From a bacterium UBA3734 (GTDB lineage: Bacteria > Bacteroidota > Bacteroidia > Bacteroidales > Bacteroidaceae), in NCBI GenBank assembly GCA_002372575.1, contig DFHC01000033.1, forward strand, positions 1-22,983: a stretch of DNA of 22,983 nucleotides, in the 5' to 3' direction. Of this stretch, positions 2,107 through 20,370 are shown in pieces (within the stretch, counting starts at the first letter, position 1; each line of letters opens with the position of its first letter). Under the pieces are notes generated by a model. The model was not told where the DNA came from. It saw only the letters and a list, made by a program, of their open reading frames with translations, and searched no databases. The translations under genes and the position numbers were made by a program.

Positions 2107-2223
2107 GGAGTTATCGCTGCGCTTAGGAGTTAGTTCGCTTCGCTCACGGAGTTAGAGGGAGTTAGCAGTCGTTTGACTAAACTATTGACTTTTAACTCCA
2201 GAGGTCGCAGACCTCGTAACTCC
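2107..2223. repeat. GGAGTTA / TAACTCC intergenic repeat
   Basis: Four GGAGTTA units in direct orientation face two inverted TAACTCC units. A short perfect hairpin GAGGTC-GCA-GACCTC (2201-2215) lies between the two inverted copies. No open frame or promoter is visible here. Confidence 0.6.
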
Positions 2224-2233
2224 CTTTCACTTC

Positions 2234-2298
2234 TCATCCCCCCCACTGGGAGCGGCTAAATGCTCCCCACCCTTTGGGAGGGGCTGGGGGTGGGTCTT
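2234..2298. repeat. GC-rich palindromic element, copy 1 (touches the stop of the cohesin-like gene)
   Basis: C-runs, a CCACCCTTTGGGAGGGG core and a CTGGGGGTGGG arm match the dispersed element seen at 2385, 8825, 9750, 13908, 17370 and 18171. It ends at the TAA (2299-2297) of the minus-strand gene. A small hairpin GGGAGC/GCTCCC is included. Confidence 0.7.
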
Positions 2299-2887
2299 AC
2301 TTCACCACCTTCCTGCCATTATGGATATAAATCCCCTTCTCCTTCGGCTCGCCGTTCAACTTTTTGCCGTCCACCGAATACCAGTTCCCCTTCCCTTTTG
2401 GGGCAGGGTTGGGGGAGAGGCTGTCAATTCCCGACGTTTCCTTCACCGTAATGGTGAACTCGGTATCGGGACGGGCATGGCTCACGGCCTCAGGCGTGGC
2501 AGTGCGGAAAAGGCGGATGCGGCCAGTTTTCGTGCCGACGTCGCCATTTACGGTAATGGGCAGACGGAGCAGTTCGCCGTTGGCGAGGTTGTCGAGGTTC
2601 ATGTTATAGAGCACGAAGAGGCGGTCGCCGCTGCTGAGCGTGCTCACGCTGAGTTCGTGGCTGTTGGCCGACGAACCTTTCGTGATGGCAGCCTCATCAA
2701 GGGTGATGCCTGAGGGCAGCGTGAGGTTAAACTGCAAGGCGGTCACGCCGCCGAGACCTGCGCCCGTCACAACCAGCTCTGCCTTCGCTCCGGCCTCGGA
2801 TTCGATGGGCGCAATGCTGAGGGTCTGGGCTGATGCACTAACCATCGCCGTCAGTACAACCAACATATTTAGTAATTTCTGTTTCAT
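2297..2887 (-). CDS. Secreted cohesin-like protein with C-terminal tail domain
   Basis: A 196-residue exported protein. Residues 1-20 form a signal peptide ending ASA before QT. Residues ~22-148 read as a cohesin-like beta-sandwich (LQFNLTLPSGITLDEA, then SGDRLFVLYN and GELLRLPITV). This fold binds dockerins in cellulosomes; in Bacteroidota it is usually a stand-alone surface module of unknown partner. Residues ~155-167 (SPNPAPKGKGN) are encoded by the GC-rich repeat. The C terminus (WYSVDGKKL...KGIYIHNGRKVVK) resembles the short Bacteroidales C-terminal tail related to secretion or sorting domains. The gene follows the dockerin gene after 34 bases on the same strand, so co-transcription is likely. 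The cohesin assignment rests on pattern only and is moderately certain. Confidence 0.75.
   Translation of the reverse strand: MKQKLLNMLVVLTAMVSASAQTLSIAPIESEAGAKAELVVTGAGLGGVTALQFNLTLPSGITLDEAAITKGSSANSHELSVSTLSSGDRLFVLYNMNLDNLANGELLRLPITVNGDVGTKTGRIRLFRTATPEAVSHARPDTEFTITVKETSGIDSLSPNPAPKGKGNWYSVDGKKLNGEPKEKGIYIHNGRKVVK
2385..2422. repeat. GC-rich palindromic element, copy 2, inside the cohesin-like gene
   Basis: A 38-base unit with a TTCCCTTTTGGGG core and a GGGGGAGAGGCT end lies in frame and supplies the linker between the cohesin-like domain and the C-terminal tail. Confidence 0.75.
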
Positions 2888-2921
2888 CGTTATTCGTTGT
2901 TTTTGTTGTTTGACTTATCTT

Positions 2922-3701
2922 TTATTTCATATATACATTCATTTTTGCACCAGTTGAATTTGGTTGCCATATATCATAACTAATAGAATTAATGGTTATT
3001 ATAGATAATTTTTTCCATGTATTATTTGGCGTTGCCATATCACTTGCATATGCTTTAAATGATTTATCGGTTGGAACAGCAACATACCAAGAATTACCGG
3101 CAGTTCCACCAGTTATAGTTTGATTAATTTGATTTGCATTTAAAGTATGCCATTTATTATTTGTGAAGTTTGTATCATCAACTGTTGGTGTTCCACTTAT
3201 TGATGTTGGTTGTGTCTGACCGGCATACCAATAATACACAGTTTGAGCAACAACAAAGTTTATGCTCCCGCTTATCTTGTTATTCGTTTTATAAATCTTG
3301 TATCCCATAACGTCTGTCCAAGTAAACTCAACGGCAGAGCCATTTCCATCAGTGAGTGACTTTATATGTTTTGTCTCAGGCATGACGAAATAGACGTACT
3401 GGCCGTTAGCCGTTACTGAACCTGTTTCGGGGACTTCACTTTCGGCAATTCGGGAGGCTACGTCTGTGAGATTGTCAGCTTGCACGGCGTTGCCATTATT
3501 CGTGCCGGCATACCAATAGCACATCTTTTCTCCGACGGCACCGCCGCCCTCCTTCATAATCTTAATGACATTAACGAGGTCGGCCACATCCACCGTTCCG
3601 TCTTCGTTCACGTCACCTTTTACGGGGTTCGTGTTTTGTGCAAACGCACTTATGCTACCCAGCAGCACCGCTGCCAGCAGCGTGAGAAATCTCGTTTTCA
3701 T
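2922..3701 (-). CDS. Secreted dockerin-type protein with two WYAG modules
   Basis: A 259-residue exported protein. A signal peptide (residues 1-21, ending AFA) leads to a single dockerin-like calcium loop (D30, N32, D34, G35, D38, D41 in GDVNEDGTVDVADLV). Two related modules follow, starting at about residues 61 and 156; each opens with YWYAG and contains a hydrophobic WYV/YVYFVMP strand, so the gene shows internal duplication. The module part (about 2922-3480) is clearly more AT-rich than the signal/dockerin part, which suggests a mosaic origin. Upstream is the P-loop gene (19 bases), downstream the cohesin-like gene (34 bases). Dockerin loops usually bind cohesins, and the adjacent cohesin-like product is a natural candidate partner. 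That pairing is inferred. Catalytic function: none recognised. Confidence 0.8.
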   Translation of the reverse strand: MKTRFLTLLAAVLLGSISAFAQNTNPVKGDVNEDGTVDVADLVNVIKIMKEGGGAVGEKMCYWYAGTNNGNAVQADNLTDVASRIAESEVPETGSVTANGQYVYFVMPETKHIKSLTDGNGSAVEFTWTDVMGYKIYKTNNKISGSINFVVAQTVYYWYAGQTQPTSISGTPTVDDTNFTNNKWHTLNANQINQTITGGTAGNSWYVAVPTDKSFKAYASDMATPNNTWKKLSIITINSISYDIWQPNSTGAKMNVYMK

Positions 3702-5240: not shown

Positions 5241-5272
5241 CAAAGATACGACAAAAATGCGAAACTTCCAAA
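5241..5272 (-). promoter_or_regulatory. Promoter of the toxin-antitoxin pair
   Basis: TATCTTTG (5248-5241) with an upstream TTTG (5272-5269) spaced 20 bases fits the Bacteroidota consensus. The predicted leader is about 20-25 bases. The upstream half of the promoter overlaps the palindrome at 5259-5280. Confidence 0.7.
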
Positions 5273-5280
5273 AGTTTCGC
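5259..5280. promoter_or_regulatory. Perfect inverted repeat over the toxin-antitoxin promoter (candidate operator)
   Basis: GCGAAACTT (5259-5267) and AAGTTTCGC (5272-5280) form a perfect 9-base inverted repeat around CCAA, covering the -33 region. It lies between two divergent promoters and is not downstream of any gene, so an operator or insulator role fits better than a terminator. However, a T-run follows on the plus strand, and the same stem core serves as a terminator at 2064-2104. Confidence 0.5.
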
Positions 5281-5343
5281 CTGTTTTTTGGCTCCATGAA
5301 AAATAAATTTTTAATTTATGTGTTCACTTCATTGAATTTTTTG

Positions 5344-5387: not shown

Positions 5388-5846
5388 ATGACTGAACCAA
5401 CGACAAAACAACCTGCGCAGGAAGCACCGACATTCCGTCACGTGCTGCCCTTGCAGATTCGCTGGAACGACACCGACAAGTTTGGCCACGTGAACAACGG
5501 CGTTTTTTTCGAGTTTTACGACACGGCGAAGACCGACTACATGACGACCGTGTGCCCGGGTGTGGACTGGGAGCAGGTGGGCATCGTGGTGGTGCACATC
5601 GAGGCCGACTTCGTTGCCGAGGTGAAGGCCGGTCACCACATTCTCGCCCGCACGCGCACCTCGCACATCGGGCGCACGAGCATTCGTCTGGAACAGGAAA
5701 TCATCGACTCAGACACGCAGCAGGTGAAGTGCCGCTGCACGTCGGTGATGGTGCTCTACGACCTCCACGAGCACCAGACGATTCCGCTGCCCGACCACTG
5801 GGTGCAGGCTATTAACGCGTATGAAGGAAAGGAGCTAAAAGGTTAA
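5388..5846 (+). CDS. Acyl-CoA thioesterase, hotdog fold (4HBT/YbgC type)
   Basis: A 152-residue single-domain cytoplasmic hydrolase of thioesters. The N-terminal signature WNDTDKFGHVNNGVFFEFYD carries the catalytic Asp and the GHVNN turn of the 4HBT family. The following DF..E(V/I)KAG strand and the HIGRTSIRLEQEI strand are the usual hotdog sheet. The substrate cannot be predicted. The gene has its own promoter and stands alone between the divergent toxin-antitoxin pair and nagB. Its last codons (ELKG and the TAA) merge into a TTAAAGGG-type tandem repeat, so the C-terminal end appears to be repeat-derived. Confidence 0.88.
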   Translation: MTEPTTKQPAQEAPTFRHVLPLQIRWNDTDKFGHVNNGVFFEFYDTAKTDYMTTVCPGVDWEQVGIVVVHIEADFVAEVKAGHHILARTRTSHIGRTSIRLEQEIIDSDTQQVKCRCTSVMVLYDLHEHQTIPLPDHWVQAINAYEGKELKG

Positions 5847-5919
5847 AGGGTTAAAAAGTTAAAGGGCTAAAAAGTTAAAGGGCTAAAAAGTTAAAGGGTT
5901 AAAAAGTTAAAGGTTAAAA
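5847..5919. repeat. 16-base tandem repeat AGGGYTAAAAAGTTAA
   Basis: Four complete consecutive units (5847, 5863, 5879, 5895) differ only at one C/T position in the order T, C, C, T, followed by a partial unit. A degenerate unit overlaps the thioesterase stop codon. There are no spacers, so it is not a CRISPR array. Confidence 0.9.
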
Positions 5920-5942
5920 TTCACTCGGAGATCCCAACTCGC

Positions 5943-6019
5943 CGACTCTCAACTGTCAACTATCAACTATCAACTATCAACTCGCCAACTCTCAACTCTC
6001 AACTGTCAACTATCAACTA
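5943..6019. repeat. Heptamer repeat CAACTNT upstream of nagB
   Basis: About ten consecutive CAACTAT/CAACTCT/CAACTGT units end nine bases before the nagB start. No TAnnTTTG promoter is visible in the gap. The family recurs, inverted, at 14908 as TTGAGAGTTGAG. Confidence 0.85.
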
Positions 6020-6027
6020 AAAGAAAT

Positions 6028-8822: not shown

Positions 8823-8824
8823 AA

Positions 8825-8863
8825 CCTCACCCCCAGCCCCCTCTCCGAAAAGAGAGGGGGTGG
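8825..8863. repeat. GC-rich palindromic element, copy 3
   Basis: The arm CCTCACCCCCAGCCCC is followed by a CCCTCTCC-GAAA-AGAGAGGGGG hairpin directly after the stop of the NagB/PIG-L gene. It may act as a terminator-like structure here, but the same sequence sits inside coding regions elsewhere, so this is not its defining role. Confidence 0.75.
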
Positions 8864-8894: not shown

Positions 8895-11159
8895 ATGAAG
8901 AAAGTACTTTTTCTGGGTTTGCTGTTTGCTTCGTTTTGCGCATCGGCGAAAGAGAAGATTCGCGTGGCCTGCGTGGGCAATAGCGTCACCTACGGAATGG
9001 GCGTCGAAAATCGTGAGCAAAACGCCTATCCCGTCGTGTTACAGCGCTTGCTGGGCGACCAGTACGACGTTCAGAACTTCGGCCACTCGGGTTCGACGCT
9101 GCTCAACCGCGGTCATCGGCCCTACACGAAGGTTGACGAATATCGGAAAGCCCTCGATTTCAAGGCCGATTGGGTGATTATCCACCTCGGACTGAACGAC
9201 ACCGATCCGCGCAACTGGCCGAACTACAGCGACGACTTCATCGGCGACTATCGCGCCCTGATCAACTCGTTTCGCGCCGTGAATCCGAAGGCGAAAGTCT
9301 GGATTTGCGCGATGACGCCCATCTTCCACCGCCATCGCCGTTTCCAGACCGGCACGCGCGACTGGCACGAGGCCATCCAGAAGCGAATCCGACAGATTGC
9401 CGCCACCGCCGACGTCGGCCTCATCGACCTGCATACGCCGCTTTACGCGCATCCCGAACTGCTGCCCGACGCGCTGCATCCCAACGTGGAGGGTGCTGCG
9501 ATGATTGCCAAGACCGTCTATTCGGCCATCACGGGCGATTTCGGCGGCTTGAAACCCTCGCCGATGTATGGCAACGGCATGGTTCTGCAGCGTGGCGACA
9601 GCATTCCGCTGCACGGAACAGCCAACGCGGGCGACGTCGTTGACGTGACGTTCAACGGCGTTTCGCTGACGACGAAAACCAACGCGGATGGCCGATGGCG
9701 AGTTGTATTTCCGTCGGTGGAGGCGGGTGGGCCGTATCGGTTGGAGTTTAGCCTCTCCCCCCAGCCCCCTCTCCAAAAAGAGAGGGGGAGAGAGTTTTCC
9801 CGAACGAAAGCATCTCGCAAAAAACAATCTCCCTCCCCTTTTGGGGAGGGTCGGGGTGGGGCTGTCCTCTTCGACAGCGTCTATGTGGGCGAAGTCTGGC
9901 TCTGCTCAGGCCAGTCGAACATGGAATTTCAACTCAGAAGAAGTTCGACGGCAGAAGAAGATGTTGCACTTTTCCCGCAGTCGGCAGCGAGCAGACTGCT
10001 GCACCTCTGCAACATGGCGCCGATCTACAGCACCGACAATGACAACTGGCCGGCAGCCGTTTGCGACTCGGTGAATCAGTTGAAATACCTGAAAAAACCC
10101 GTTTGGGAACGCGCAACGGCGGAAAACATCAGGAATTTCTCGGCCATCGCCTACCACATGGGGCGTGTCTTGGCCGATTCGCTGCAAGTGCCTGTCGGTA
10201 TCATCTGCAATGCTGTCGGCGGCTCGACAACCGAGTCGTGGATTGACCGCCGCACGCTCGAATGGAAACTTCCGAACATCCTCACCGACTGGTATTTTGG
10301 CGACTACGGCCAGCCGTGGGCACGCGAAAGGGCTTTGAAAAACATCGCGCAGGTCGTGAATGTGGAAAAAGACGGGAAATCGACGCCCGACCTGAACAAA
10401 ACACGCCAGCAACGGCATCCCTACGAGCCTTGCTATATGTTCGAGGCGGGCATCTTACCGCTCGACCACTTCCGAATCAAGGGCGTGGCGTGGTATCAGG
10501 GCGAGTCGAATGCCCATAACATCGAGCTCCACGAGCAGTTGTTCCGACTGCTACGCGACAGTTGGAGCGCGTATTTTGGACGGCGTAGTCTACCCTTCCA
10601 CTTTGTGCAGCTATCGGGCCTGAACCGTCCGTCGTGGCCGGCGTTTCGCGACAGCCAGCTGCGCTTGAACCGTGGAAACGGACTGCATTCGGGAATGGTG
10701 GTCAGCCACGACCACGGCGACTCGCTCGATGTGCATCCGCGCAACAAACGACCCATTGGCGAGCGACTGGCACGACTGGCGCTGCACAAGAATTATGACT
10801 ACAGAAAGCTCGTGAGCCAGAGTCCTCGTCCCGTAGGAATCGATATCCACGAAGGCTGCGTCCGCATCGCGTTCAGTGGCCTCAACGATGCCAATCGGGG
10901 GCTTCATCCTGCTTCGGGCGACCGAATCATCGGCTTCGAAGTGGCTGGGAAAGATGGCATTTTCCATCCTGCCGAGGCGCGAGTCGATGAGAATCTCTTG
11001 CTCGTTCTCCTGACCTGTCCTGAGGTGAAGGAGCCTGTCGAAGTGCGCTACGCGTGGCAGCCTTTTACGCGGGCCAATCTCGTGAACGGCGCGGGACTGC
11101 CTGTCTCGACTTTTAAATATCGCGTTTCAAAAAGAAAAGAACCTTGGGTTTGGGACTAA
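8895..11159 (+). CDS. Two-domain sialate O-acetylesterase (SGNH hydrolase + SASA)
   Basis: A secreted 754-residue esterase that removes O-acetyl groups from sialic acids or related sugars. A signal peptide (about 1-18, ending ASA) precedes an SGNH/GDSL hydrolase domain (about 20-215) with GNSVTYG, the GLNDTDP block and the D-x-x-H pair in DALHPN. The second domain (about 320-640) is the sialate O-acetylesterase type, with GEVWLCSGQSNME, NAVGGSTTESW, WYQGESNAH and a terminal DVHP. A 38-residue insert encoded by the 114-base repeat (9750-9863) lies in the linker between the domains without breaking the frame. The ATG at 8895 is preferred over an upstream TTG (8880) because it opens directly into the signal peptide. 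Two-domain versions are known in gut Bacteroidota that feed on mucin. Confidence 0.9.
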   Translation: MKKVLFLGLLFASFCASAKEKIRVACVGNSVTYGMGVENREQNAYPVVLQRLLGDQYDVQNFGHSGSTLLNRGHRPYTKVDEYRKALDFKADWVIIHLGLNDTDPRNWPNYSDDFIGDYRALINSFRAVNPKAKVWICAMTPIFHRHRRFQTGTRDWHEAIQKRIRQIAATADVGLIDLHTPLYAHPELLPDALHPNVEGAAMIAKTVYSAITGDFGGLKPSPMYGNGMVLQRGDSIPLHGTANAGDVVDVTFNGVSLTTKTNADGRWRVVFPSVEAGGPYRLEFSLSPQPPLQKERGREFSRTKASRKKQSPSPFGEGRGGAVLFDSVYVGEVWLCSGQSNMEFQLRRSSTAEEDVALFPQSAASRLLHLCNMAPIYSTDNDNWPAAVCDSVNQLKYLKKPVWERATAENIRNFSAIAYHMGRVLADSLQVPVGIICNAVGGSTTESWIDRRTLEWKLPNILTDWYFGDYGQPWARERALKNIAQVVNVEKDGKSTPDLNKTRQQRHPYEPCYMFEAGILPLDHFRIKGVAWYQGESNAHNIELHEQLFRLLRDSWSAYFGRRSLPFHFVQLSGLNRPSWPAFRDSQLRLNRGNGLHSGMVVSHDHGDSLDVHPRNKRPIGERLARLALHKNYDYRKLVSQSPRPVGIDIHEGCVRIAFSGLNDANRGLHPASGDRIIGFEVAGKDGIFHPAEARVDENLLLVLLTCPEVKEPVEVRYAWQPFTRANLVNGAGLPVSTFKYRVSKRKEPWVWD
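9750..9863. repeat. 114-base inverted pair of GC-rich palindromic elements inside the esterase gene
   Basis: Two element copies face each other. The left arm begins AGCCTCTCCCCCCAGCCCC and carries a CTCTCC-AAAAAG-AGAGGGGG hairpin. The right arm holds CCCTCCCCTTTTGGGGAGGG and ends GGGGTGGGGCT. About 35 unrelated bases separate them. The total is exactly 38 codons, so the frame is kept. The layout, with inverted termini and a short centre, resembles a miniature mobile element, but no target-site duplication was identified. Confidence 0.8.
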
Positions 11160-13312: not shown

Positions 13313-15619
13313 TTAATATATTTTTTTAATTTTCGTGTTCTGATAATAATGTTGCAGGATTTCGTCGTAAGAATGGCCATTTTCGCCCATCACGGCGGCT
13401 CCAATCTGGCAAAGGCCCACGCCGTGACCCCAGCCTTTTCCTTTCAGGATGAATTGGGTGGTGGGTGATGGGTGTTGATTTTCGACTTTCTCGACCTCGA
13501 ACCAGCTGCTCTTCAGGTGCGAATCGGAAAGCGTGCGGCGGATTTCGAGCTCTTTTCCGATGGTGAAATTGCCCTTGCTGCCCACGATTTTCAGCTTCCA
13601 GATGCGCCCGCTCTTGCCGCGTTCCAAAGGGACGAGGTCGGTGATGGTGCCGAGGTCGATGCCATGTTTCGAGCGGAGCCACTCGGCAACTTGCTCGCTG
13701 CTGATGCACTCGGTCCACTCGTAGAAGTCGGGCGTTTCCTGGTCGTAGTCGTTGAGTACCTGACGGATGAGCGAGGCATCGCTCGTGTTGCACCACGGAC
13801 ACGCCACGGAGCGCAGATAGGGCTTCTCGATGTTTTCCCAACAGTACTGAAATTCCTCGGTTCTGCCACCACAGCACTTTGAAAAACGGGTGTCGCAGAT
13901 TTTGGCAGCCTCACCCTCAACTCCTTTCCCATCGGAGTGGGGGGAACTATGAACCTGTGAATTGTGAATTGTTAATTGCAAATGATAAGTAAGAACCTGC
14001 CCATGCGTGGCCTTGACAGCCTCGGCCACGTGCGGATTTGTGGCGCGCGTGATGCCTTGATAGCGCTGGCAGTGGTCGTCGGCGCAAACGTCGAAGAGCA
14101 CGTGGTCTTCGCGGTCGTACCAGCGGATGAGTTCTGAATGTTGATGGTTGAATGTTGATGGTTGAATTGTTTTTTGAGGTTTCAACGCCTCCTTTTTTTC
14201 CTCGATTTGCGCCAGAAGCCACGAACGCGAAATCACGGCGTGAGCCTTGAGCAGTTCGAGCGACGAGGTGCCGCTCATCTCGCTCGAAATCACGCTCTCG
14301 AGGTATTGCTCGACGGGTAATTCGTTGATAGCCAATATCTTGTCGTGGTCGATAATCAGGCGAAGCGTTCCGCGAAACGTCTGCGTCTCTTTGCGATTCC
14401 AATGGAAATCAACGCCGATGGTGACATCTTCGAGCGTGAAGGATGCATCGTCGGCTTTCGGGCTGAAAATCAGTTGCTTATAGTTTTTTTCGTTCCAAAG
14501 AATCGCTCCGTTTGCAAACGTGGCAACTTGCTCGCCCTCGATTTCGATTCCATTGACGGAATACGATGCGTTCAGCGTAAATTTCATCTGCTGCGCACTG
14601 ACGATGCCGACGGATACCATCGGCGCAGAATGCTGAGTTTTTTGCGCGATTTCTTGTGCCGATTCCGCATCAATGGCGCATTCTTGCAGAATTTCCGCGG
14701 CTTTCGAGGCCGTCAGCCGCTCGAAATCTTCTTGTCGCGGCGTGATGATGAGGCCGGCCATGTCGAGCGCACCCGGACTGACGAGCACCTGACTGTCGCC
14801 CTCGGCAAAATAGCAGTCGGGACGATGCTTGCGCCGCGGAAAAACGACGGAAATCGTCGTGTCGTCCTCGCGCCATGCCACGATGTTCAGCATCGGCTCT
14901 TCTTCAGTTGAGAGTTGAGGGTTGAGAGTTGAGAGTTGATGGGTGATGGGTGATGGGTGATGGGTGGTGGATGAGAGTCGGGTGTATAGGGTTTCAAACA
15001 ATCGGCGGTCGTTTTCGGCATTTTTGCTGCGAATCACGAAAGCTGGCACGACGAAATCGCTCAACAACGCTATTGAATCGGCGTCGTTCAGGGCGAAAAC
15101 GCTTTCCAAATGCTCCTGCAAGTGCGACCACTGCTGCCGCAAGGGAAGCTGTTCGCCCGTTCCGGCCTGAAAATGCAGGTGGTCGGGTGCGGAGGCACCG
15201 CAGCGCGGGCCGTTGTAGAAAACGGTGAGCTTGGGAAATTGCACCGTCAGTTGGTGAATTATCGCGTAGTGGCCGTCGATTTGCTGCGGCTTGTGCGACT
15301 TCAGCGGAATGGTGAAGTGCATCGGCAAAATGGGGAACGGATTAACGAGCAATTCGTATTCTTCGCTGCTGACGATGTCTTCAATCGTCTTGGAAAACTG
15401 CACTTGCGGACGATTCTCCGAGCAAAGGAAGCAAGGTCGCTTTTCGAGCGATTTCGCGTCGATTTTCGCTCCCGTCGAGACCATTCGGGCCGGATTCCAC
15501 TGCACGCGAAGGCCGTTTTCGGGAAAATCGCGCGTCTGAACCCGTGCCAAGTCGTCGAAGCGTTGGCGTGCATCGGGCCATTGCGCCAGTTGTCGGTCGA
15601 AAAACTCCTTGATTTCCAT
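13313..15619 (-). CDS. DUF4922 (HIT-like) fused to SpoIID/LytB domain
   Basis: A 768-residue fusion. Residues ~1-330 are DUF4922, a galactose-1-phosphate uridylyltransferase/GDP-hexose-phosphorylase-like fold with CFLC (C63, C66), NPFPILPMHF and the histidine motif HLHFQA (H147, H149). Residues ~400-768 are a SpoIID domain, the type that cleaves or binds denuded peptidoglycan glycans. They carry VEQYLESVISSEM, the family glutamate in SLELLKAHAV, CCGGRTEE and GWGHGVGLCQIGA. No signal peptide is visible, which is odd for a wall-active domain. Four in-frame repeat inserts interrupt the protein, encoded at 14908-14976, 14136-14169, 13908-13985 and 13453-13480. The gene lies one base after the glycosyltransferase stop and four bases before the permease start. 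The combined function is unknown. Confidence 0.88.
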   Translation of the reverse strand: MEIKEFFDRQLAQWPDARQRFDDLARVQTRDFPENGLRVQWNPARMVSTGAKIDAKSLEKRPCFLCSENRPQVQFSKTIEDIVSSEEYELLVNPFPILPMHFTIPLKSHKPQQIDGHYAIIHQLTVQFPKLTVFYNGPRCGASAPDHLHFQAGTGEQLPLRQQWSHLQEHLESVFALNDADSIALLSDFVVPAFVIRSKNAENDRRLFETLYTRLSSTTHHPSPITHQLSTLNPQLSTEEEPMLNIVAWREDDTTISVVFPRRKHRPDCYFAEGDSQVLVSPGALDMAGLIITPRQEDFERLTASKAAEILQECAIDAESAQEIAQKTQHSAPMVSVGIVSAQQMKFTLNASYSVNGIEIEGEQVATFANGAILWNEKNYKQLIFSPKADDASFTLEDVTIGVDFHWNRKETQTFRGTLRLIIDHDKILAINELPVEQYLESVISSEMSGTSSLELLKAHAVISRSWLLAQIEEKKEALKPQKTIQPSTFNHQHSELIRWYDREDHVLFDVCADDHCQRYQGITRATNPHVAEAVKATHGQVLTYHLQLTIHNSQVHSSPHSDGKGVEGEAAKICDTRFSKCCGGRTEEFQYCWENIEKPYLRSVACPWCNTSDASLIRQVLNDYDQETPDFYEWTECISSEQVAEWLRSKHGIDLGTITDLVPLERGKSGRIWKLKIVGSKGNFTIGKELEIRRTLSDSHLKSSWFEVEKVENQHPSPTTQFILKGKGWGHGVGLCQIGAAVMGENGHSYDEILQHYYQNTKIKKIY
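13453..13480. repeat. TGGGTGATGGG repeat inside the SpoIID domain
   Basis: GGTGGTGGGTGATGGGTG units read in frame as HPSPTTQ, near the C-terminal GWGHG block. They belong to the same family as 14941-14970. Confidence 0.65.
13908..13985. repeat. GC-rich palindromic element (copy 6) plus AATTGTGAATTG repeat inside the SpoIID domain
   Basis: AGCCTCACCC...GTGGGGGGAACT (13908-13948) is the palindromic element. It is followed directly by GAATTGTGAATTGTTAATTG. Two different repeat families are therefore nested side by side in the frame (peptide TIHNSQVHSSPHSDGKG), just before the conserved CDTRFSKCCGG motif. Confidence 0.75.
14136..14169. repeat. GAATGTTGATGGTTGAATG repeat inside the fusion gene
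   Basis: Two GAATGTTGATGGTT units are read in frame as a TIQPSTFNHQHS-type peptide inside the SpoIID region. Confidence 0.75.
14908..14976. repeat. TTGAGAGTTGAG + TGATGGG repeats inside the DUF4922 domain
   Basis: Four TTGAGAG/TTGAGGG units are followed by five TGATGGG-like units. The reverse-strand peptide is rich in His, Pro, Ser and Thr (HHPSPITHQLST) and falls between two conserved parts of the DUF4922 fold. Confidence 0.85.
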
Positions 15620-15620
15620 C

Positions 15621-16991
15621 CTATTTCTTCATCTTCTGCCGTGCCATCAGCTCCATCGTGCGCAGGCGGTCTTTATAAAGGTTATTGGCGTTCACTTTCT
15701 CCACGGAGAGCGCCGCGTCGCTGTTGCCGTCCCATCGGCGGCAGAGGTAGAGCTCGTCGTAGATGCGACCGATGCGCCACCGTCGGCTGAAAATGAGACC
15801 CATCGCGTAGTCCTCGCCATACGAGGTGTTCGGGAACTGGATTTGCCGCACAAACGGTGTAAAGAATGCGCGTGGAGCTCCTAATCCGTTGATTCTCAAT
15901 GCGTTGTTCGGGCCATTTTCGTCGGTCCATTCGCGGTGGTCGATGAGGCCGGGCGGCAGCGTTTCCAGCTGGAAATCGCACATCCGATAGCTGCCTACAA
16001 TCATTGCGGCCTGCTGCTCACGGAACGCATCGACGATTTTCTGCAGCGTCTGGGGCGAGGAATAGAGGTCGTCGCTGTCGAGTTGCACGGCGAAACGCCC
16101 GCAGTGCTCGCTGTTCACGGCCATGTTCCAGCAGCCGCCGATGCCCAAATCGCGCCGATTCGGCGTGAGAACAATCAAATTTTCGTTCTTGGAGGCGAGT
16201 TCGGCAAGGATTTCCGAGGTTCCGTCTGTGGAATGGTTATCGACCACGACGACGTTGAACGGGAACGATGCCTCTTGCGACAAGGCGCTCTTCACGGCCT
16301 CGCCGACGGTTTTCGCGCGGTTAAAGACGGGAATCACCACCGAGGCCTCGACGCTGAACGTCGCGCCATCGAAGTCGATTTCGGGGTACGAAGCCGTGTC
16401 GATCAGCGCATTCAGCTGCCGCAGATGCTCCGTGCAGGCGCGTTCCATCTCGATTTGCACCTCTCGGTTGCGCGGATTCACGTAGTCGAACTGCTTTTCG
16501 CCACTCTTGCGCGTGTCCTCTTCGACAATCGTGTAGAGCGTTTCGTTCAGGTGGAAAAGCAGCCCGCAGCGACTCAAAAACAGGCGCAAATCGTACCACG
16601 CAGCGAAGCGGAACTGCCGCTTTTCGTCTGCCGCAACCTCCTCGGCCCATTTTTTCAGCCACCGGGTGCGAATCAGCACGATTTGCCCGAAATCGAAGTC
16701 GTCGCGCAGCGAACCCTCCTGATAATCAATGACGGGATGGCGCTCCGTTTCGCCCTGCTTCACGGCCAGATAATCGCTGTAAACCATCGCGGCATCGGTT
16801 TCCTCAGCCGCCCGAAGCAATCGCTGCAAGGCGCCCTCACCCATATCCACGGGCGTGGACTTCAGGCTGAGCAGCGTGTAGTCTCCATCGGCCTCTCGCG
16901 CCACTTGCAGCAGCTCGCCGGTGTCGCAAAGTCCATTGTTCGTGAGCTGAAAATGGTCGATTTTTGCTCTCATTCGTTGTATTTTCTCCAT
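15621..16991 (-). CDS. Family 2 glycosyltransferase with N-terminal GT-like extension
   Basis: A 456-residue cytoplasmic or membrane-associated glycosyltransferase. The GT-A domain begins at about residue 213: VVIPVFNRAKTV, then VVVVDNHSTDGT, and the metal-binding DSDD (305-308). A later acidic GED (in SYGEDYAMG) fits the catalytic base position. Residues ~35-195 resemble a second GT-A half (YTLLSLKSTPVDM, AAMVYSDY, RFAAWYDLRLFLSR) but lack the opening nucleotide-binding strand, so this part is probably degenerate. Donor and acceptor are unknown. It is the first gene of the operon with DUF4922-SpoIID and the AmpG-like permease; only one base separates it from the next start. It shares an intergenic region with the divergent rlmN. 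Confidence 0.88.
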   Translation of the reverse strand: MEKIQRMRAKIDHFQLTNNGLCDTGELLQVAREADGDYTLLSLKSTPVDMGEGALQRLLRAAEETDAAMVYSDYLAVKQGETERHPVIDYQEGSLRDDFDFGQIVLIRTRWLKKWAEEVAADEKRQFRFAAWYDLRLFLSRCGLLFHLNETLYTIVEEDTRKSGEKQFDYVNPRNREVQIEMERACTEHLRQLNALIDTASYPEIDFDGATFSVEASVVIPVFNRAKTVGEAVKSALSQEASFPFNVVVVDNHSTDGTSEILAELASKNENLIVLTPNRRDLGIGGCWNMAVNSEHCGRFAVQLDSDDLYSSPQTLQKIVDAFREQQAAMIVGSYRMCDFQLETLPPGLIDHREWTDENGPNNALRINGLGAPRAFFTPFVRQIQFPNTSYGEDYAMGLIFSRRWRIGRIYDELYLCRRWDGNSDAALSVEKVNANNLYKDRLRTMELMARQKMKK

Positions 16992-17011
16992 TTGTGGTTC
17001 GTAATTTCGTG

Positions 17012-17019
17012 CAAATTTA
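17012..17019 (-). promoter_or_regulatory. Probable -7 box of the glycosyltransferase operon
   Basis: TAAATTTG on the minus strand fits TAnnTTTG and is followed by GC as usual. The nearest TTTG upstream is 22 rather than 19 bases away, so the -33 element is uncertain. It lies 20 bases before the ATG. Confidence 0.55.
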
Positions 17020-17061
17020 TAAAAAAAAATGGAAGTTTGCTCAAAAGAGGGGAAAAAATTG

Positions 17062-17069
17062 TAACTTTG
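17062..17069 (+). promoter_or_regulatory. rlmN promoter -7 box
   Basis: TAACTTTG followed by C, with a TTTG at 17036-17039 (22-base spacing). The ATG of rlmN is 33 bases downstream. The two divergent boxes are about 45 bases apart, so both transcription units may be co-regulated. Confidence 0.7.
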
Positions 17070-17102
17070 CAGGTTGAAACGTGCAATAATCAGCTGAAAA
17101 CG

Positions 17103-18233
17103 ATGGGTGACACCAAAAAACGGCTTCTTGGAATGACGCTGTCAGAACTGAAAACGATGGCAGCCGACATGGGGATGCCTGCCTTCACGGGCAGACAGAT
17201 TGCCCAGTGGCTCTACGAAAAGCACGTTGGCAGCATCGACGAGATGACGAATCTTTCGAAGCAAAACCGCGAGCGACTCGAAGCCGAGTATGAGGTGGGA
17301 CGAATGGAGGCAGTGGATTGCCAGCGCAGCAGCGACGGGACGGTGAAATACCTTTTTCCGGTTAGAAAACTCCCCTCACATTCTGAAAAGGGGCAGGGGG
17401 AGAGGCTCTATGTCGAAACCGTCTATATCCCTGACGGTGAGCGGGCTACGCTCTGCGTGTCGTGTCAGGTGGGATGCAAGATGAACTGCCTTTTCTGCCA
17501 GACGGGAAAACAAGGATTCGACGGCAACCTCACCGCTGCCGACATTCTGAACCAGATCCACTCCCTGCCTGAGCGCGAAAGCCTCACGAACATTGTGTTC
17601 ATGGGGCAAGGCGAGCCGATGGACAATCTCGACGAGGTGCTTCGCGCCACGCAAATTCTCACTGCCGACTGGGGCTGGGCGTGGAGTCCGCGCCGTATCA
17701 CGGTGAGCAGCGTGGGCATCAGGGAGAAACTCCGCCGCTTCCTCGATAAAAGCGAGTGTCACGTGGCCATCAGCCTGCACTCGCCCTTCCACGAGCAGCG
17801 CGCGGAACTGATGCCGGCGGAGCGTGCGATGCCGATTGCCGAAACGGTAGAGTTGTTGCGCGCTTACGATTTCGCCCACCAACGACGCCTCTCGTTTGAG
17901 TACATCGTGTTTGCAGGGGTGAACGACTCGCGCGTCCATGCCAAGGCCATTGTCGATTTGCTGAAGGGACTCGACTGCCGCATCAACCTGATTCGCTTCC
18001 ACCAGATTCCTGGTAGCGAGTTGCGCGGAGCCGACGAAACCACGATGCTCCGACTGCGCGACTACCTCACGCAGCACGGCTGTTTCGCAACCATCCGCGC
18101 CTCGCGAGGCGAAGACATTCAGGCAGCCTGTGGACTGCTTTCGACGAGGGGGAGTGAGCAAAAAAATAATCGTTCTCCTCTCCCTTTGGAGGGGGCCTGG
18201 GAGGCTCTAAATCGTAAAATAGTGAAATTGTAA
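17103..18233 (+). CDS. rlmN: 23S rRNA (A2503-C2)/tRNA (A37-C2) methyltransferase RlmN
   Basis: A 376-residue radical SAM enzyme that methylates C2 of A2503 in 23S rRNA and of A37 in some tRNAs. The cluster motif C125-x3-C129-x2-C132, the resolving C118 and the methyl-carrying C343 (in QAACGLL) are all present, as is GQGEPMDN, so the enzyme should be active. The ATG at 17103 lies 33 bases after the promoter box; the open frame upstream (to 15936) is antisense to the glycosyltransferase gene. Residues ~90-102 are encoded by a GC-rich repeat placed before VETVYIPDGE. About 28 C-terminal residues after LLST are also repeat-encoded, an extension absent from usual RlmN proteins. pdxA-like follows 18 bases downstream. 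Confidence 0.95.
   Translation: MGDTKKRLLGMTLSELKTMAADMGMPAFTGRQIAQWLYEKHVGSIDEMTNLSKQNRERLEAEYEVGRMEAVDCQRSSDGTVKYLFPVRKLPSHSEKGQGERLYVETVYIPDGERATLCVSCQVGCKMNCLFCQTGKQGFDGNLTAADILNQIHSLPERESLTNIVFMGQGEPMDNLDEVLRATQILTADWGWAWSPRRITVSSVGIREKLRRFLDKSECHVAISLHSPFHEQRAELMPAERAMPIAETVELLRAYDFAHQRRLSFEYIVFAGVNDSRVHAKAIVDLLKGLDCRINLIRFHQIPGSELRGADETTMLRLRDYLTQHGCFATIRASRGEDIQAACGLLSTRGSEQKNNRSPLPLEGAWEALNRKIVKL
17370..17407. repeat. GC-rich palindromic element, copy 7, inside rlmN
   Basis: A 38-base unit CTCCCC...GAAAAGGGGCAGGGGG ending AGAGGCT, the same length as the copy at 2385. It replaces the short loop normally found between the N-terminal domain and the radical SAM core. Confidence 0.75.
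18171..18206. repeat. GC-rich palindromic element, copy 8, at the rlmN 3' end
   Basis: CTCCTCTCCCTTTGGAGGGG followed by GCCTGGGAGGCT. It is translated as part of the RlmN C-terminal extension (RSPLPLEGAWE). Confidence 0.75.
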
Positions 18234-20266: not shown

Positions 20267-20313
20267 CTTGTTTTACACTGACGGGGGATTTCACGAAAAA
20301 AAAGACTGAATCT

Positions 20314-20344
20314 TTTGAGGATTCGCCACTTTTTCGTATCTTTG
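20314..20344 (+). promoter_or_regulatory. Promoter of the GH84 gene (TTTG-N19-TATCTTTG)
   Basis: TTTG (20314-20317), exactly 19 bases, and TATCTTTG (20337-20344) followed by C match the Bacteroidota consensus fully. The leader would be about 20 bases. This separates GH84-DUF3467 from the rlmN operon. Confidence 0.85.
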
Positions 20345-20370
20345 CAAACGCAAAACATACCCCAAAAATC

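Follow-up and report, generated by a model that had tools for sequence, protein, structure and literature searches.

How does an enzyme gene come to carry a long palindrome within its coding sequence without losing its reading frame? The question is raised by a gene for a GDSL lipase / sialate O-acetylesterase (SASA) in the 22,983-nt stretch of DNA analysed here (the window), which is contig C120 (DFHC01000033.1) of the rumen Prevotella genome UBA3734 (1.88 Mb, 58.5% complete). An interpretation made from the letters alone (the sequence-only reading) had recognised an in-frame inverted pair of a palindromic repeat, 114 nt long, at 9750-9863 of this gene. This is borne out by the scores of a covariance model and by the 759-codon frame, which stays open across the whole pair. 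We propose, with a probability of roughly 85%, that the pair belongs to a REP/REPIN-type miniature palindromic element, tagged in most copies by AGCC[T/C]C, that has multiplied in a set of Prevotella species and is tolerated in protein loops.

Repeat units in the window

The covariance model, R1, was built from 15 units including the left esterase unit. These had been chosen via the head pattern, so that the head consensus is partly a selection effect, from which an earlier BLAST search was free. Searched against the window, R1 recovers all eight units, which are given below together with the spacer and the host gene.

2263-2297 (-): unit at the end of the 196-codon frame 2297-2887 (-); R1 26.1 bits
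2385-2422 (-): unit in the 196-codon frame 2297-2887 (-), no Pfam match; R1 39.0 bits
8823-8861 (+): intergenic unit 5' of the esterase gene; R1 51.1 bits
8880-11159 (+): host gene, GDSL lipase / sialate O-acetylesterase (SASA), 759 aa; Pfam PF13472 and PF03629, AlphaFold model
9750-9789 (+): left unit of the in-frame inverted pair, head AGCCTC; R1 59.0 bits, E 4.7e-10
9790-9828 (+): spacer, 39 nt, coding in frame for a basic Lys/Arg/Ser-rich peptide; from the sequence
9829-9863 (-): right unit, inverted, head AGCCCC; R1 33.9 bits, E 2.3e-5
13907-13944 (+): unit in frame in the DUF4922/SpoIID gene (13313-15619, -); R1 22.4 bits, E 0.003
17370-17407 (-): unit in frame in RlmN (15936-18233, +), between RlmN_N and Radical_SAM; R1 33.8 bits, Pfam, orthologues
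18173-18206 (-): unit at the 3' end of RlmN, whose frame stays open for 24 nt more; R1 20.0 bits, E 0.009

The two units of the esterase pair face outward (head-out) round the 39-nt spacer, giving 114 nt in total. The corresponding RNA folds with -64.2 kcal/mol (z = -5.4), a value that none of 200 shuffled sequences reached. Chance is excluded as the origin of this pair by the R1 scores, by the fold and by the count of the head pattern AGCCTCNCCCC, which occurs 55 times in the genome against 4 times for its reversed control. An Rfam scan of the window at gathering scores returned no matches to curated RNA families.

Further copies had been placed at 2234, 2385, 8825, 13908, 17370 and 18171, in genes and in gaps. 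All of them are real by R1, although with small shifts in coordinates (2234 becomes 2263-2297). Two copies outside the esterase are clearly intragenic, namely those in the DUF4922/SpoIID gene and in RlmN, whereas the copy at 18173 lies at the very end of the RlmN frame, the one at 2385 in a frame without Pfam match, and those at 8823 and 2263 at or between gene ends. The unit at 8823-8861 has a counterpart at the matching position in the relative L061 and none in L066 and L062; that in the DUF4922/SpoIID gene is absent from L061 and L066.

Other features were observed in the same DNA. At about the place of the DUF4922/SpoIID unit, L061 and L066 have a heptamer-array peptide (PTPNIQHPTP, STPNTQHPTP). 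The RlmN frame 15936-18233 includes an upstream stretch of ~390 codons, and its two parts match separately in the genomes of L062 and L066, stops counted. Tandem arrays of 7 or 14 nt (TTAAAGG, TCAACTN and TTGATGG types) lie between genes or close to them at 596-644, 5824-6020, 14125-14172 and 14906-14976, and a distinct dispersed repeat of ~50 nt is present at 2055-2103, 5241-5289 and 20296-20349, with a hairpin arm AAAGTTTCGC common to two of these copies.

Copy number and arrangement in the genome

Searching the full genome, as the sequence-only reading had suggested, brought up many further copies. R1 matched 118 units at E ≤ 1, of which 92 reach E ≤ 0.01; these counts come from 150 scored out of 580 candidates, so that weak copies may be missed. 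An AGCC unit consists of a head, AGCC[T/C]C in most copies and AACC, GGCC or ACCC in a minority, followed by a variable, C-rich linker, a stem of the CCCCTCTCC / GGAGAGGGG type and a short loop; it forms a hairpin and is about 29-43 nt long, ~38 nt being typical.

For the arrangement of the copies we used 111 of the 118 matches, chosen by hand. We dropped four matches at E 0.26-0.38 and three partial ones on the strand opposite to units counted before, and retained two window units with genome-search E values of 0.26 and 0.75, for which the window search gives 0.003 and 0.009. The 111 units form 94 clusters, 77 single and 17 multiple, and the orientation is inverted and head-out in 13 of the 17 close pairs. 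In seven of these 13 the sequence starts with AGCC and closes with GGCT, and in the remaining six one end or both depart from this. Among the extragenic pairs, several join a 32-nt unit to a longer unit, with a similar spacer adjoining the longer one. G-quadruplex motifs are confined to a minority of the units (15/111, compared with about 0.1-0.2% of controls).

Copies inside genes

Thirty-eight of the 94 clusters, 33 of them single units, lie in a frame that stays open for 150 nt or more to either side. This criterion is loose, since 38-nt segments taken at random from the same loci pass it in 69% of cases, and 38/94 is thus an upper figure; measured against the random segments, the intragenic share is a depletion. 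In 23 of the 38 cases the same frame has Pfam domains on either side of the insert or running across it; the domains are one-sided or ambiguous in 10 and lacking in 5. The tally was made by hand, and for TsaD and an OEP protein we infer the place of the second domain stretch. Judged by their domains, the 23 hosts include TsaD, SufD, Lon, MutS, MiaB, MurB, Fmt and a Mur ligase (with two inserts), as well as DsbD, a U32 peptidase, ABC-F, SpoU, CutC and RlmN.

Several insert peptides recur, namely SLSPDPSPKGEGS, LPSxxGEGxGERL and SPLSTWRGAGGEA. If expressed, the units would be translated in several frames and in both orientations. All six frames are open in 63 of the 111 units; the figure is 29% for shuffled units and 16% for segments drawn at random from the same loci. 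Units on the same strand as the gene favour one codon phase (15:5:1, chi-square p = 0.0006), and those on the opposite strand have no clear preference (3:10:9, p = 0.14). The proposal of a single dispersed palindromic family that makes Pro/Gly/Ser/Lys-rich in-frame inserts is supported by the 92 units at E ≤ 0.01, by the 38 of 94 clusters in frames, by the recurrent peptides and by the orthologues without insert described below.

The insert site of the esterase in relatives

The closest named relatives of the esterase are from Prevotella and Prevotellaceae, mostly rumen MAGs. Nineteen relatives, of 80 loci fetched, were examined. In all twelve relatives outside the clade of UBA3734 (L067-L072, L074-L079), 20 residues separate AGGPY from the next conserved block. 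All eight members of the clade (UBA3734 and seven relatives) have a longer stretch at this site, ranging from 21 to 52 residues:

UBA3734: 52 residues, AGCC pair
L062: 44 residues, right unit (R1 25.9 bits)
L073: 46 residues, left unit (R1 31.2 bits)
L066: 35 residues, basic remnant, by eye
L065: 35 residues, basic remnant, no recognisable AGCC arm
L061: 21 residues, scar resembling the end of the right unit, by eye
L063 and L064: 48 residues, GTAG pair

By eye, seven of the eight have the basic spacer in common. In a tree of three proteins from 13 genomes the clade has a support of 100; UBA3734 groups with L061, L062 and L066 (98), and L063 and L064 group with L073 (100). Within the sub-clade of L063 and L064 two supports are weaker, 64 and 69. 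Shortly 3' of the first site the gene has a second one, at which L063 (7070-7104) and L064 (7076-7113) each carry one AGCC unit (18.6 and 30.0 bits) and L073 (6967-7083) a pair, all in frame; the esterase of UBA3734 is empty there.

The insert had been taken to be exactly the repeat, 38 codons long. This does not hold, as the net gain compared with the empty orthologues is 32 codons. Its supposed position, a linker between two catalytic domains, needs correction: in the AlphaFold model (mean pLDDT 84.5) the middle beta domain that holds the insert sits between both catalytic domains, and the insert (residues 291-328) lies in a loop flanked by strands 283-292 and 328-344 of this domain, not in a bare linker. 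The only long internal stretch of low confidence, residues 297-318, falls within the insert, which is predicted to be a disordered loop of the middle beta domain.

Insert sites in other host genes

In SufD, UBA3734 has 28 codons at the insert site and the homologues P0004-P0008 have 4-5, even though they are 97.0-97.4% identical outside gaps. At the DNA level, the nearest empty relative, L306 (83-84% identity), has 5 codons compared with the 28. Among the SufD loci (23 of the 30 kept could be parsed), L321 and L322 contain a single reversed unit (R1 37.0 and 31.0 bits); tandem hairpins in L331 and a remnant in L333 were seen by eye, both without R1 match. For TsaD, P0122 is 97.3% identical and has a short loop without insert. 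Across the 118 TsaD homologues that could be parsed out of 120 listed, this loop has between 8 and 41 residues, and many of the homologues contain a REP-like peptide there, judged by the peptide only. In the model of P0121, which is 99.2% identical to the UBA3734 protein, residues 128-148 have a pLDDT below 50, in a modest model overall (mean 64.2). Where the inserts of MutS and RlmN lie, the orthologous stretches vary, and the RlmN gene of L276 contains a unit (R1 60.3 bits).

Judged by the orthologous sequences, the sites in the esterase, SufD and TsaD are true inserts, and presence in some and absence in other close relatives suggests that the AGCC units are mobile. The appearance of the same residues at the same sites in unrelated lineages, named by the sequence-only reading as evidence to the contrary, was not seen in the more distant relatives. 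Nor did we see the clean insertion, of the repeat and nothing else, that had been expected: the esterase, MutS and RlmN have a net gain shorter than the element, and SufD has 28 codons against 5. Native codons are missing where the inserts stand, which hints at recombination or at later trimming. In SufD, no target-site duplication was seen at the single junction compared with a nearby empty relative (L306).

The variation of the same loops in length and composition across the genus, seen in SufD and TsaD, could also be explained by local growth of low-complexity loops through GC-rich slippage and drift, without any mobile DNA, and a short tandem repeat is indeed present in at least one such loop of relatives. 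Slippage could hold for single loops, but it cannot copy a sequence from one locus to another, and here one 38-nt unit with head, linker and paired stem recurs at dozens of loci that are unrelated to each other, some within genes and some not, inverted in 13 of 17 close pairs. As a general explanation we regard it as very improbable.

A second repeat family at the esterase site

The pair at the esterase site of L063 and L064 belongs to a different family, with the tag GTAG. Its motif GTAGGGGCAGAC occurs 160 times in the genome of L063 (G176) and 146 times in that of L064 (G177), once each in three others and not at all in the remaining eight of the 13 genomes, UBA3734 included. The locus L301 in the genome of L064 codes for a Y1 protein of 180 aa with GTAG repeats on both sides and is thus a GTAG REPtron. 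Beside it a trmB-like gene (2217-3044, -; named by sequence) has in-frame AGCC-type units near its C-terminus. Genome G028 has a further Y1 gene (L166, 1210-1990) between GTAG repeats, whose arms differ and are of the GTAGGGGCGTACC type.

The GTAG family is nearly always extragenic in the sample. In 40 stretches of G176 we counted 44 GTAG clusters, of which 4 meet the open-frame criterion, compared with 47% of random 87-nt segments of these stretches; one of the four is the esterase, and the others are frames of 139-246 codons that lack a Pfam match. A family with so few copies in genes of this sample thus occupies the old insert site of the esterase in L063 and L064. AGCC units of the same two genomes meet the criterion in 11 of 15 cases, with Pfam domains flanking or spanning 9 of the 11; the 15 are the best-scoring of 48 (G176) and 28 (G177), so that this share may be biased, and two of them are the same gene in both genomes. 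Their Pfam-supported hosts include LeuRS, a KsgA-like protein, Lgt and a sulfatase.

This comparison bears on the idea that the repeats are mainly RNA or DNA signals, such as terminators, mRNA stability hairpins or gyrase sites, whose intragenic copies are accidental. The hairpins are very stable, 56 of the 94 AGCC clusters fail the open-frame criterion, many of them at gene ends, and such functions are described for REPs in parts of the literature (PMC3733652, PMC6006769). Against such a role stand the AGCC units of G176 and G177, in frames in 11 of 15 cases, 9 with Pfam support, compared with 4 of 44 for GTAG clusters in G176, the esterase alone being recognised by Pfam; the share of the 15 best-scoring units may be biased. 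We consider it improbable as the main explanation.

How the GTAG pair came into the esterase can be read in two ways. In the bolder reading it replaced an older AGCC pair in place; about as likely, it was inserted independently into an empty or permissive loop, and we give this second course a substantial chance, a little short of even. Loops at these sites take many kinds of insert, L065 has a basic stretch without recognisable AGCC arm, the order of events in the sub-clade is weakly supported (64 and 69), and the further AGCC unit at the second site in L063 and L064 indicates that the gene takes up repeats repeatedly. For replacement speak the insert at the site in all eight clade members, the AGCC left unit at the same place in L073, which is joined to L063 and L064 at a support of 100, the basic spacer in seven of eight (by eye) and the near-complete absence of the GTAG family from genes elsewhere in the sample.

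More tentatively still, and with the odds somewhat against it, loops of conserved proteins might be lasting niches in which later REP families swap the arms and the translated spacer stays, so that a loop would record the succession of families; openness in all six frames would then make the AGCC family a REP superfamily suited to coding DNA.

Distribution and search for a mobilising enzyme

In the 198 genomes of the order that were surveyed, the AGCC family is nearly absent outside its own genus. With at most 150 candidates scored per genome, R1 matched 15-93 units at E ≤ 0.01 in each of the seven clade relatives; outside the clade it matched 45 in the genome of L071, 2 in that of L067 and none in three others. 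An order-wide survey with stricter filters (at most 34 scored candidates per genome) gave matches at E ≤ 1e-4 in 12 of 198 genomes including UBA3734, of which ten others have 1-4 matches and one has 13. Across 150 genomes of the genus, the head pattern exceeds its control in some only, and the control is nearly equal in G003 and G026.

A RAYT (Y1 transposase) for the AGCC units was sought among genes with the Y1_Tnp profile (PF01797). The profile was found in 39 of 60 genomes and in 9 of 12 relatives reached through loci; the UBA3734 assembly, 58.5% complete, gave no match to this profile. We compared 46 Y1 loci, composed of 30 kept of 89 matches (13 from the genus) and 16 from relatives, 33 of the 46 being outside the sampled genus list or only 1.5 kb deep. 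In none of the 46 is the gene enclosed between R1 matches, and in 5 such matches lie on one side only; these five are among the 16 from relatives, and the 30 have no R1 match. L303, a Y1 gene in the genome of L063, has a GTAGGGAC-type repeat on one side.

Relation to known palindromic elements

REP/REPIN sequences with RAYT are divided into GTAG and CGTC superfamilies by Di Nocera et al. 2013 (PMC3733652), who also describe intragenic REPs in several species, with the largest numbers in Opitutus terrae and Rickettsia conorii, and a case in recB, where two Xanthomonas species have different REPs at nearly one position. Prevotella has 0 occurrences in the main text of that paper. Among the open-licence PMC papers listed in a search, none deals, by title and beginning of the abstract, with REPs or in-frame palindromes in Prevotella. 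Like REP/REPIN elements, AGCC units are hairpins of the 20-40 nt class with a tag at one end, present as singles and inverted pairs at high copy number. Unlike them, they carry mostly the tag AGCC[T/C]C instead of GTAG or CGTC, and have a C-rich linker of variable sequence between tag and stem. An apparently large share is intragenic, and no RAYT was found among the 46 Y1 loci compared. Beside the mainly extragenic habit of REPs one can set the 38 of 94 AGCC clusters in frames by the loose criterion (random 69%), 23 with Pfam support.

Rickettsia palindromic elements insert in frame into many unrelated genes and encode a peptide insert (PMC10969869 and PMC3733652). The likeness drawn to them by the sequence-only reading stands for behaviour, since AGCC units also form in-frame inserts in unrelated protein-coding genes, and does not extend to membership: the phylum is another one, and AGCC units are shorter, C/G-rich and read in several frames and both orientations.

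According to PMC6006769, TnpA-REP proteins of subclass 2.4 (Cyanobacteria, Bacteroidetes and others) are associated with GTAG REPs, also in frame within tnpA, which resembles the GTAG family and the RAYT of L301. Subclass 2.6 (Bacteroidetes) has atypical, non-GTAG structures with copies elsewhere in the genome. The AGCC units are likewise non-GTAG, but no Y1 gene flanked by them was found; an enzyme of subclass 2.6 that might handle AGCC units is, by analogy, a lead. Head-out AGCC pairs share terminal inverted repeats with MITEs (AGCC...GGCT in 7 of 13). Two candidate RNAs confined to Prevotella are named near uvrC in PMC8040213. The AGCC family is REP/REPIN-like and behaves like Rickettsia palindromic elements; new are its tag, the tolerance of its unit for coding use, how many housekeeping genes host it, and that families alternate at one fixed loop.

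Model and implications

We propose that units of ~30-43 nt, singly or as head-out inverted pairs, come to lie at sites all over the genome. They would probably be moved by a Y1/HuH enzyme that processes the single-stranded hairpin in trans, or else by recombination from one copy to another. Since the unit is poor in stops in all six frames and would give Pro/Ser/Gly/Glu/Lys-rich peptides predicted to be disordered, copies that hit surface loops would be translated and tolerated, and others presumably purged. Occupied loops could then serve as long-lived docking sites, in which arms decay, are deleted, invert or yield to another REP family.

Intragenic REPs and Rickettsia palindromic elements are already known; here one family in a common animal-gut genus enters many housekeeping proteins. 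The AGCC inserts would explain Pro/Gly-rich variable loops in alignments of Prevotella proteins, and close relatives with and without insert make neutrality, arrival and the evolution of loops by capture of selfish DNA directly testable.
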